From positions 1 to 49,778 of the forward strand of contig CAMVED010000008.1 in NCBI GenBank assembly GCA_947166445.1: DNA of 49,778 nt. Reading direction: 5' to 3'. This document shows, piece by piece, positions 26,039-29,505 of the stretch; position 1 is the stretch's first letter, and each line of letters starts with the position of its first letter. The notes beneath the pieces were generated by a model. That model did not search any database, was not told the origin of the DNA, and saw only the letters and a program-made list of their open reading frames with translations. The position numbers and the translations under genes are program-made. This DNA comes from an uncultured Mycoplasmatota bacterium. Lineage in GTDB: Bacteria; Bacillota_I; Bacilli_A; RF39; UBA660.

Positions 26039-28156
26039 TTACATAGCATCCTTTCTAGAAAAGTTTAATCTTCCTTTATTATCAGTACCAATGAACTTAA
26101 CCACTATTTCGTCTCCTACTTTTACAACATCTTCTGTCTTTTCAACACGTTCTTTTGCAAGTTTTGAAATATGTACTAATCCTTCACAACCAGGCCATAC
26201 TTCAACGAAACATCCAAAGCTTTCTACTTTTACTACTTTTGCGTTGTATACTTCTCCAACTTCTACTTCACGAACAACATCTTCAATTAATTTCATAGCT
26301 TTATCAATTACATCGTAATCAGTATGGTATAGAATTACTCTACCATCATCTTCAATATCAATCTTAACAGCGTTTTTATCATTTACACTTACTACGTTAC
26401 TTGCTTCTTGAATAATTCTAGTAATAACTTCTCCGCCACGTCCAATAACATCTTTGATCTTTTCTTCTTTAATTTTCATTTGTTTAATTTTTGGAGCATA
26501 AGGAGATAATTCTTTACGTGGTTCAGATATAGCACTACTCATGTTTTCAAGAATTTCAAATCTTGCTTTTTTAGCTTGTTGTAAAGCTTCTCCAAGTATT
26601 TCTTTAGTAATACCTTTAATTTTTATATCCATTTGAAGAGCACATATACCATTTTTAGTACCTGCTACTTTAAAGTCCATATCTCCGAAATGGTCTTCTG
26701 CACCTTGAATATCTGTAAGAATTGTATACTTATCACCTTTAGTAATTAATCCCATAGCAATACCAGCAACCATATCTTTAATTGGAACACCTGCAGCCAT
26801 TAAACTCATACATCCTGCGCAAATAGAAGCTTGTGAAGATGAACCATTACTTTCAAGCACTTCAGATACTACTCTTATTGTATAAGGAAATTCTTCTTCA
26901 CTAGGTATAACTCTAGCAAGCGCTTTTTCACCAAGTGCACCATGTCCAATTTCCCTTCTACCTGGAGCACCATATCTACCTGTTTCTCCAACACTAAATT
27001 GTGGAAAATTATAGTGATGCATAAATCTTTTACCTTCTTCATCAGAAAGTCCATCAAGAATTTGATATTCGTTAATTGATCCAAGTGTAGTTACGCTAAG
27101 AACTTGAGTTTGACCTCTTGTAAACATTGCAGATCCATGTGTACGAGGAAGTAAATCAATTTCTGAAGACAAAGGTCTTATTTCATCAATTGCTCTTCCA
27201 TCAGGTCTTATATGTTCTTCTGTAATAAGTCTTCTTATTTCTTCATATTCGATAGCTTCAAGCACTTCATTTACTTGATTAATAACACCATCTAAATCAT
27301 CAGAATCTTTATACATTTCTCTAAATGTTTCACGAACTTCTTCTTTAAGTTCATCAATTTTTTCTTGACGTTCTAATTTTCCTTCAATTTGAATGGCATT
27401 AACCATTTTTACAGTAATAATATCTCTTACTTTAGAATTTATTTCCTCATCTACTTTAATAATTGGATAATCTTTTTTAGGCTTACCAATTTCTTCTACT
27501 ATTTTTTCTTCAAAAGCAATAAGTTCCTTTATAGCTTCATGACCAAACATCAAAGCATCTAACATATCTTCCTCACTGGCTTCTGCAGCACTTGATTCAA
27601 CCATATTAATTGCATCTTTTGTACCAGCAACAGTAAGATATATATCACTTTTTTCTTGTTCTTCTACAGTAGGATTTATTACAAATTCTCCATCAACTCT
27701 ACCAACAACAACTGATGCAATTGGACCTTCGAATGGTAAATCACTTATAGAAAGTGCAAGTGAAGATCCAAATAAAGCAGTCATTTCAGGACTATTATCT
27801 GTATCAACTGAAAGTACAGTATTTACTATTTGCACCTCATTTTTAAAACCTTCAGGGAAAAGTGGTCTAATAGGTCTATCAATTAATCTTGCAGCAAGTG
27901 TTGCATTTTCCGTAGGTCTTCCTTCTCTTTTAATAAATCCTCCAGGAATTTTACCAACAGAATATTGTTTTTCTTGATATAAAACCATAAGTGGAAAGAA
28001 ATCTCCTGTAGTTGGTTCTTTCTTATTAGTAACTGCAGATAACACTACTGTATCTCCATATCTAACTAAACAAGAACTTGAAGCTTGCTTAGCCATTTTC
28101 CCTATTTCAACTGTTATAGGTCTTCCTCTAAACTCAAAATTATACGTTTTTTCCAT
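26039..28156 (-). CDS. pnp: Polyribonucleotide nucleotidyltransferase (PNPase)
   Basis: 705 residues. Two RNase PH domains (first: [54 protein letters not shown]; second: [44 protein letters not shown]), then KH ([16 protein letters not shown]) and S1 ([31 protein letters not shown]). It degrades RNA 3' to 5' by phosphorolysis. The segment [18 protein letters not shown] carries the catalytic Asp residues. Start ATG with AAAGGAATGAAG upstream. It is 18 bp after an unknown gene and downstream of rpsO, the usual rpsO-pnp neighbourhood with one gene inserted. Confidence 0.98.
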
Positions 28157-28174: not shown

Positions 28175-28696
28175 TTATCTATTTCTAGATTTAGTACGGT
28201 TTTTCATATTTAAATCTAAGCTTTCGCTTACATCACTCAAAAATCTTTTCATGTTTTCAGGTGTCTCTTCATTGTACTCTTTCATAACTTTATCGATTAT
28301 AATAAAAGCATCCTCTCCAAGTTCTTTTATTAGTTTTAGTAAAATTTCATAAGTTATTCTTCTGTTCTTTATTTTTGTCATATTATAATTATCTTTAAAT
28401 TCTTTTAAATAAATAGCAATTTCTTCTTTACTAAGTTTTAATTTATTAGTAAAGTTATTAAAGCTAAATAAAGTATCCATATCAATATAAAGGTCTCCTA
28501 CTTCTCTACCTGAAGAAAAATAGTTAACTCCAGTTTTAATATCCTTAAAACAAGCAGTATAATAATCGCTTTCATTTTCTACTACTATCCATTTTAAAAA
28601 CCTTTTAGAAATAACCATTTCATCACTATAATACTCTATTCCAGATACAATAAAAAGTCCAACAATATATAATTTATCAGTTTGTATTTTTTGCAT
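28175..28696 (-). CDS. Unknown protein inserted between rpsO and pnp
   Basis: 173 residues, soluble, no signal peptide or TM. The N-terminal half looks beta-rich (LYIVGLFIVSGIEYYSDE, then TACFKDIKTGVNYFSSG) and the C-terminal half helical and charged, ending in a basic tail (NMKNRTKSRNR) that could contact RNA (inference). GGGGG stands close to the ATG as the SD. I do not recognise a family. It sits 18 bp before pnp and would be cotranscribed with it; an intrinsic terminator after rpsO lies in its leader, so it receives readthrough or has a promoter I cannot see. Confidence 0.7.
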   Translation of the reverse strand: MQKIQTDKLYIVGLFIVSGIEYYSDEMVISKRFLKWIVVENESDYYTACFKDIKTGVNYFSSGREVGDLYIDMDTLFSFNNFTNKLKLSKEEIAIYLKEFKDNYNMTKIKNRRITYEILLKLIKELGEDAFIIIDKVMKEYNEETPENMKRFLSDVSESLDLNMKNRTKSRNR

Positions 28697-28742: not shown

Positions 28743-29012
28743 CTATTTTCTTAAACCTAATTTTTTTACAACTTCACGATATCTAGTAACATCTTTATTT
28801 TTTAAATAATTAAGTAAACTTCTTTGTTGACCAACTTTTTTAAGCATTCCTCTTCTTGAATGAAAATCATGCTTGTGTTCTTTTAGATGTTCTGTTAAAG
28901 CCTTGATTTCTTCAGTAAGAATTGCTATTTGAACTTCTGTACTACCAGTATTTTTTTCATCTTTAGCAAATTTCTTAACAATTTCAGCTTTTTTTTCTTT
29001 TGTTAAAGCCAT
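28743..29012 (-). CDS. rpsO: Ribosomal protein S15
   Basis: 89 residues, the standard length. Conserved segments: [54 protein letters not shown], with the [11 protein letters not shown]-type 16S rRNA contact. It binds 16S rRNA helices 20-22 early in 30S assembly. SD AAAGGAGGT, 6 nt from ATG. The leader can fold into a pseudoknot, suggesting autoregulation (see separate entry). Confidence 0.99.
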
Positions 29013-29039
29013 AATTTACCTCCTTTATATATCATTCAC

Positions 29040-29072
29040 CGAAACCAAGATGAATAAGGATTTCGTTCATCT
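29040..29072 (-). promoter_or_regulatory. rpsO leader pseudoknot, probable S15 autoregulatory element
   Basis: In the minus-strand leader, hairpin AGATGAA/TTCATCT has an 11-nt loop beginning CGAAATCC. This loop can pair with GGTTTCG immediately 3' of the hairpin (seven pairs with one bulged nucleotide), forming an H-type pseudoknot about 20 nt upstream of the SD. Autogenous S15 control through leader RNA structure is known in several bacteria; this specific structure is my reading. Confidence 0.55.
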
Positions 29073-29091
29073 GAGTAACGGAAGCAATAAT

Positions 29092-29120
29092 AATATACTA
29101 TAATTTATGTAAAAAAGCAA
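29092..29120 (-). promoter_or_regulatory. Promoter of rpsO
   Basis: Minus strand TTGCTT, 17 nt, TATATT. It gives a leader of about 73 nt, long for this genome, that contains the pseudoknot. Confidence 0.55.
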
Positions 29121-29138: not shown

Positions 29139-29167
29139 TTGACATGATAAAATCAAAACACTATAAT
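29139..29167 (+). promoter_or_regulatory. Perfect consensus sigma-A promoter of the 103-residue membrane protein
   Basis: TTGACA, exactly 17 nt, TATAAT: every base consensus. It drives only the small gene at 29194, which has SD AAGGAG and a terminator right after its stop. Confidence 0.85.
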
Positions 29168-29193: not shown

Positions 29194-29505
29194 ATGCAAG
29201 AAAAAGAAAAAGTAAAAAATATTTCAAAAGCAGGATTATTCATTACTAATACAGTTGAAACTTTTGCTTTTAAAACAGCAGAAATTATAGGACTATTAAC
29301 AATACAGATTAGTGCATTGGATTTAGGGCTTGACGGAAACATAGACATTTTTTATAACAATCCAACAAAATACACAGCAGCATTATTATCCCCTATAGCA
29401 GTTGGATATCTAATCAAAAAAATTGATCCTAATAACGAAACCGCTAAAGAAATAGATGAAATAATTGAAGATTTTAAACCCAAAGCCAAAATAAGAAAAA
29501 AATAA
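29194..29505 (+). CDS. Small membrane protein, unknown function
   Basis: 103 residues. A charged start (MQEKEKVKNISK), a moderately hydrophobic helix (LFITNTVETFAFKTAEIIGLLTIQI), a second segment (YTAALLSPIAVGYLIKKI) and a charged, Lys-rich tail. No family recognised. It is one of the few genes here with an entirely consensus promoter, a clean SD and a dedicated terminator, so it is probably abundant. Flanking genes are divergent (rpsO) and convergent (acyl ligase), so no operon context is available. Confidence 0.75.
   Translation: MQEKEKVKNISKAGLFITNTVETFAFKTAEIIGLLTIQISALDLGLDGNIDIFYNNPTKYTAALLSPIAVGYLIKKIDPNNETAKEIDEIIEDFKPKAKIRKK

Follow-up and report, generated by a model that had tools for sequence, protein, structure and literature searches.

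The rpsO locus and its leader

The window, by which we mean the whole 49,778-nt stretch of DNA analysed here, carries rpsO on its minus strand, followed directly by a terminator-like site and further downstream by pnp (Table 1). A 173-aa open reading frame (ORF) without an NCBIfam match lies between rpsO and pnp (28175-28696, minus strand). On the other side, the neighbour of rpsO is a divergent ORF of 103 aa (29194-29505, plus strand) for which no NCBIfam family matched, and ahead of it stands a perfect sigma-70 consensus promoter, TTGACA-17-TATAAT, at 29139-29167 (+). The rpsO leader with the conserved RNA element described below occupies 29085-29013 on the minus strand, and the sequence up to and including the start codon reads GCUUCCGUUACUCAGAUGAACGAAAUCCUUAUUCAUCUUGGUUUCGGUGAAUGAUAUAUAAAGGAGGUAAAUU-AUG (29085-29010). 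In 124 family leaders, a -10-like hexamer stands upstream of the outer helix P1, with a median distance of 7 nt (interquartile range 7-8) between its end and the helix; from the position of this box, the transcript probably starts at or just before P1. P1 is weak in this genome, and single-sequence folding of the window leader was not exceptional (z = -1.14, with 34 of 200 shuffled sequences as stable) and is uninformative alone.

Table 1 Features of the rpsO leader and surrounding genes in the window
Feature	Position	Strand	Remarks
-10-like promoter element, TATATTAT	29090..29097	-	read from the sequence
P1, 5' strand, CCGUUA	29076..29081	-	outer helix, covarying; two U-U mismatches in this genome
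Internal motif, 5' strand, CUCAG	29071..29075	-	first C and last G invariant in 36/36 aligned leaders
P2, 5' strand, AUGAA	29066..29070	-	inner helix, covarying
Apical loop, CGAAAUCCUUA, 11 nt	29055..29065	-	coincides with the pyrimidine-rich loop conserved in the family alignment
Anti-Shine-Dalgarno stretch, UCCUU, in apical loop	29056..29060	-	complementary to Shine-Dalgarno AAGGA; predicted 5' strand of pseudoknot helix P3
P2, 3' strand, UUCAU	29050..29054	-	covarying
Internal motif, 3' strand, CUUGG	29045..29049	-	with CUCAG, places a U-G pair beside a C-G pair (GU/GC step)
P1, 3' strand, UUUCGG	29039..29044	-	covarying; most of the GGUUUCG tail (see text)
A/U-rich spacer, 13 nt	29038-29026	-	between P1 and Shine-Dalgarno sequence
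Shine-Dalgarno sequence, AAGGAGG	29019..29025	-	AAGGA (29025-29021) complementary to loop UCCUU; predicted 3' strand of P3
rpsO start codon, AUG	29010..29012	-	match of covariance model R1 ends at this AUG
rpsO, ribosomal protein S15, 89 aa	28743..29012	-	TIGR00952 equivalog, 127.5 bits (cut-off 63.65)
Terminator-like site	28740-28719	-	directly after rpsO
pnp	26039-28156	-	further downstream of rpsO

A conserved, covarying hairpin precedes rpsO

The rpsO gene was present in 113 of the 117 relative genomes. The leaders comprised 30 obtained as loci, others added to them, and 80 further named loci from GTDB genomes. Most of the named relatives are metagenome-assembled genomes labelled as Bacilli, Tenericutes or Mycoplasmatota, and many come from animal guts. 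An initial motif finder with a shuffle null placed only 70 of 159 leaders above 99% of the null, and a covariance model was used instead. Set side by side, the leaders share one architecture, consisting of the outer helix P1, an internal motif of five bases per strand, the inner helix P2 and, at the apex, a loop that contains a pyrimidine tract. The 5' strand of the internal motif varies within the family among CUUGG, CGUGG, CUCAG and CUAGG; the commonest pair of strands is CUUGG/CUAGG, and CGUGG/CUAGG, CUAGG/CUUGG, CUUGG/CUCAG and CUCAG/CUUAG also occur. Of 125 family leaders, 100 have the GU/GC step that the motif can form and 25 lack it; it is also missing in all seven parsed leaders of family f4, which comprises Mycoplasma-like genomes.

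Covariation within this hairpin was high. In an alignment of 36 leaders the covariation score was 0.478, compared with 0.214 ± 0.017 after shuffling (0/500 shuffles reached the observed value), while slid controls did not exceed 0.143, and double, compensating changes occurred at 12 of 17 pairs; RNAalifold recovered the same helix from the alignment alone, with no structure supplied. Among 84 model-aligned matches, covariation was 0.464 against 0.213 ± 0.010 for shuffled alignments, with double changes at 15 of 17 pairs, although this second alignment is biased towards the structure to which it was fitted. The rpsO leader element is thus a real and conserved RNA, and the proposal in the initial annotation that rpsO has a structured S15 leader is borne out.

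The covariance model, R1, was built from 36 leaders and is a nested model that does not contain the helix between loop and Shine-Dalgarno sequence discussed below. Of 66 leaders sampled from the window's family, 65 were matched at E < 0.01; those other than the 36 had no part in building the model. In whole-genome searches of 60 genomes, 41 gave a match, never more than one apiece, and all 41 matches abut rpsO, at positions that coincide with the rpsO starts. Within the window, R1 scored 59.8 bits at 29085-29010, and the next-best match reached 16.6 bits.

The conserved partner of the apical loop

The apical loop and the Shine-Dalgarno sequence are complementary in the window (UCCUU and AAGGA; Table 1), and this complementarity is maintained by co-changes among relatives: CUCC with GGAG, UUCC with GGAAG, UUCCUC with GAGGAA, UACCUC with GAGGUA (L072), CUCCCG with CGGGAG (L206), CCC with GGG in the f4 genomes, CACC with GGUG in Bacillus, Listeria and Enterococcus, and, by eye, UUCCCAA with UUGGGAG in L089. 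Because MAFFT aligned the Shine-Dalgarno sequence poorly, pairing was scored on unaligned pieces. In 54 non-redundant leaders, cognate loop and Shine-Dalgarno sequences scored 13.55, compared with 12.57 ± 0.24 for permuted partners (0/2000 permutations reached the cognate score), a modest excess of about one unit given that Shine-Dalgarno sequences are alike everywhere and any anti-Shine-Dalgarno loop scores well. Shuffled loops scored 10.2 ± 0.3 against the Shine-Dalgarno sequence (0/500 reached the cognate score), while control pairings of the loop with upstream and coding sequence scored 8.8 and 9.0, respectively. When one leader was drawn from each of 22 groups, cognate pairing beat cross-group pairing in 98.7% of draws, and in the non-redundant set UUCC loops were associated with GGAA Shine-Dalgarno sequences (Fisher P = 1e-4). 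Relatedness is only partly controlled in these statistics; a tree-based independent-pairs test of UUCC/GGAA, which has low power, gave one supported independent pair, or eight on all branches. On these sequence comparisons, the Shine-Dalgarno sequence is well supported as the predicted conserved partner of the apical loop.

A different partner had been put forward in the initial annotation, which paired the loop CGAAATCC with GGTTTCG just beyond the 3' end of the stem. All the sequence features behind this proposal are present: the hairpin AGAUGAA...UUCAUCU (29072-29066/29054-29048, minus strand) is followed closely by GGUUUCG at 29046-29040, and the match CGAAAUC:GGUUUCG comprises seven contiguous pairs. 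In this genome its computed duplex (-7.5 kcal/mol) is stronger than that of loop and Shine-Dalgarno sequence (-5.4 kcal/mol). Nevertheless, matches as good as this occur in 0.4% of unrelated loop-tail pairs and in only 2 of the 141 leaders, the best matches in four leaders of the same genus (L002-L005) are 3-5 nt long, and the loop-tail score over the 54 non-redundant leaders (8.95) equals that of permuted partners (8.88 ± 0.26; 796/2000 permutations reach it). In relatives the partner of the tail is the 5' strand (CCGUUAC in the window), with which it forms the covarying helix P1. Moreover, about 1 nt would have to span the 7-bp stem, and such a crossing is sterically unlikely in an H-type pseudoknot. 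We therefore reject the loop-tail pseudoknot, which is equal to permuted partners and is not kept in close relatives, an outcome that the initial annotation had named as refuting it, and regard it as very improbable that an H-type pseudoknot of this kind right after the stem is the S15 site. The suggestion of a pseudoknot-like leader consequently survives in part: pairing through the loop is well supported, but the conserved partner is the predicted one at the Shine-Dalgarno sequence rather than the tail beside the stem. Likewise, the covariation that the annotation proposed seeking in relatives was found in P1 and P2 and not between loop and tail.

Variation across families

The spacer between motif and Shine-Dalgarno sequence has a median length of 19 nt in family f1, and by its geometry the spacer is long enough for the Shine-Dalgarno sequence to reach the loop. 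Several leaders of family f15 (Metamycoplasmataceae-like) keep the motif and have no anti-Shine-Dalgarno loop. Three of them (L195, L196 and L202) retain CUUGG(CUCGG)/CUAGG(CUGGG) without a CC-containing anti-Shine-Dalgarno loop and have the Shine-Dalgarno sequence just 5-6 nt past the motif, a closeness that suggests direct occlusion in these leaders. Mesomycoplasma hyorhinis (L241) retains UUCUC/GAGAA.

Other leaders depart from the common pattern in other ways. In a diverged set (L071, L081 and L171-L181 of f10; L088, L182 and L183 of f14), most loops contain GCC within UGCC (L088 has UGUC), and their complement is the start-codon region, AUGGCN (AUGACA in L088), instead of the Shine-Dalgarno sequence. 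In L129, L133, L138, L145, L149, L151, L152 and L155, other sequences such as CAAAG/CCUUG stand in place of CUUGG/CUAGG; this subgroup mostly lacks the GU/GC step and keeps a UUCCUC/GAGGAA match between loop and Shine-Dalgarno sequence.

Relation to known S15 leaders

Autoregulation of rpsO by S15 has been described in Geobacillus, Escherichia coli, Thermus, Rhizobium and mycobacteria (PMC4684408, PMC8470358); in several of these cases a second site accompanies a GU/GC motif. The Bacilli leader is known experimentally from Geobacillus, in which a GU/GC motif is combined with a three-way junction (PMC4684408), and the Firmicutes rpsO RNA was counted among the known ones by Slinger 2014 (PMC4137082). 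R1, built from window-class leaders alone, recovered the rpsO leaders of Bacillus velezensis (24.7 bits), Listeria (29.1 bits) and Enterococcus (38.7 bits); in the set from Bacillus, Listeria and Enterococcus (L234, L232 and L231), each leader was the best R1 match in its record and lay at the exact place. These leaders were taken from plasmid- or phage-labelled records carrying chromosomal DNA. Such records (NZ_CP083716.1, NZ_LR134403.1, OR846588.1 and OR848672.1) contain chromosomal rpsO, with ribF and pnp where annotated, and seem to be mislabelled or contaminated. A Geobacillus leader was sought in IMG/VR and none was found there.

The B. velezensis, Listeria and Enterococcus leaders share with the window class CUUGG/CUAGG or CUCAG and an anti-Shine-Dalgarno loop, which in these three takes the form CACC/GGUG, and the window leader is homologous to these Bacilli leaders. 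The Geobacillus/Firmicutes leader (Gk-mRNA, the B. stearothermophilus rpsO operator) similarly lies upstream of rpsO in Bacilli and has a GU/GC step in a helix, and the window leader resembles this type in lying in the rpsO 5' untranslated region (UTR) and reaching the ribosome-binding site. The Geobacillus S15 RNA is very likely the same as the Bacillus/Listeria/Enterococcus element. The idea that the window leader may be a new class thus lost ground to the R1 matches, and the element appears best described, from sequence and predicted structure, as a compact form of the Bacilli S15 leader that has diverged. Its compactness has a visible counterpart in the hairpin that stands immediately upstream of P1 in Listeria, Enterococcus and Acetoanaerobium, which is absent from the window leader, and from the window-family transcript because transcription appears to start at P1. 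The three-way junction published for Gk-mRNA (PMC4684408) may accordingly be missing or formed differently in the window leader, and the helix between loop and Shine-Dalgarno sequence could supply the third helix of a junction like that of 16S h20/21/22.

More distant S15 leaders offer partial likenesses. The E. coli leader (RF00114) also has a hairpin-loop pseudoknot near the rpsO start and a U-G/C-G step in its stem; unlike it, the window loop is predicted to pair with the Shine-Dalgarno sequence itself, and there is no structural match to the Rfam model. None of the Rfam 15 leader families matched the window element at threshold. RF00114 gave a sub-threshold match (27.4 bits, E = 6e-5), yet this lies below the gathering score of 39.5, its alignment breaks the helices, and much of it falls in the start codon and coding region; we rejected membership on the score and the broken helices, and there is next to no chance that the window leader belongs to this E. 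coli-type family. As described, the mycobacterial and actinobacterial rpsO leader resembles the window leader in having a 5' UTR pseudoknot needed for repression by S15, a U-G/C-G motif and proposed hiding of the Shine-Dalgarno sequence (PMC8470358), but the kissing-loop arrangement proposed there is unlike that of the window leader.

Proposed autoregulation and its alternatives

We propose that the leader is a cis-acting autoregulatory RNA in which excess S15 binds the hairpin, locks the pseudoknot between loop and Shine-Dalgarno sequence, hides the latter and represses rpsO, a reading to which we assign a probability of roughly 0.74. The leader would fold into one long hairpin of P1, a CUUGG/CUAGG-type motif with its GU/GC step, and P2, and the apical anti-Shine-Dalgarno loop would pair with the Shine-Dalgarno sequence 13 nt 3' of P1 to form an H-type pseudoknot. 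Unassembled S15 would bind the hairpin, with the GU/GC step, about one helical turn away from the loop, as the probable point of contact; binding would stabilize the pseudoknot, so that the Shine-Dalgarno sequence would be hidden and rpsO translation would fall. Once 16S rRNA has taken up the available S15, the weak helix between loop and Shine-Dalgarno sequence (mostly 4-7 bp) would yield to the ribosome. By analogy with the regulated leaders above, S15 is most likely the ligand, repression the most likely outcome and this the most likely order of events.

Two other readings of the same element deserve weighing. S15 bound to the hairpin might occlude the nearby Shine-Dalgarno sequence directly, with the anti-Shine-Dalgarno loop being secondary or tuning basal translation. 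Selected RNAs can regulate merely by binding S15 near the Shine-Dalgarno sequence (PMC5100602), and some f15 leaders hold CUUGG/CUAGG beside it without an anti-Shine-Dalgarno loop, but as a general account we consider this unlikely because loop and Shine-Dalgarno sequence co-change across families and none of the 141 leaders parsed in the main sample has a pairing score below 10, although shuffled loops average 10.2. Less probable still is that the pseudoknot acts on rpsO translation independently of S15, as a brake or a thermosensor, under the control of another factor or of none: sequestration of the Shine-Dalgarno sequence could by itself set expression, but the element is exclusively associated with rpsO, is homologous to rpsO leaders of Bacilli, their counterpart in Geobacillus being under S15 control, and carries a GU/GC step known from other S15 sites. 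Autoregulation by S15 through a locked pseudoknot therefore remains our preferred reading.

Evolutionary implications

S15 leaders are a standard case for how one protein reads different RNAs (PMC4684408, PMC5100602), and the Firmicutes leader, with its three-way junction, has been treated in the literature as a separate class. Alignment places mycoplasmas and classical Bacilli together with uncultured gut Bacilli in a single leader family that can be traced through visible evolutionary steps, namely loss of the upstream hairpin, joint change of loop and Shine-Dalgarno sequence, and loss of the anti-Shine-Dalgarno loop in some mycoplasmas. One tentative scenario, which we hold at somewhat less than even odds, is that the pseudoknot between loop and Shine-Dalgarno sequence is the switching core shared by rpsO leaders across Bacilli and Mycoplasmatota; S15 recognition in the Mycoplasmatota-like lineages would have moved from the three-way junction to the GU/GC step and the pseudoknot, converging on the mode of E. 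coli and mycobacteria, and some reduced mycoplasmas would later have lost the pseudoknot. The evolution of one regulator thereby becomes testable by compensatory mutation, and an Rfam-quality model of the family would be possible.
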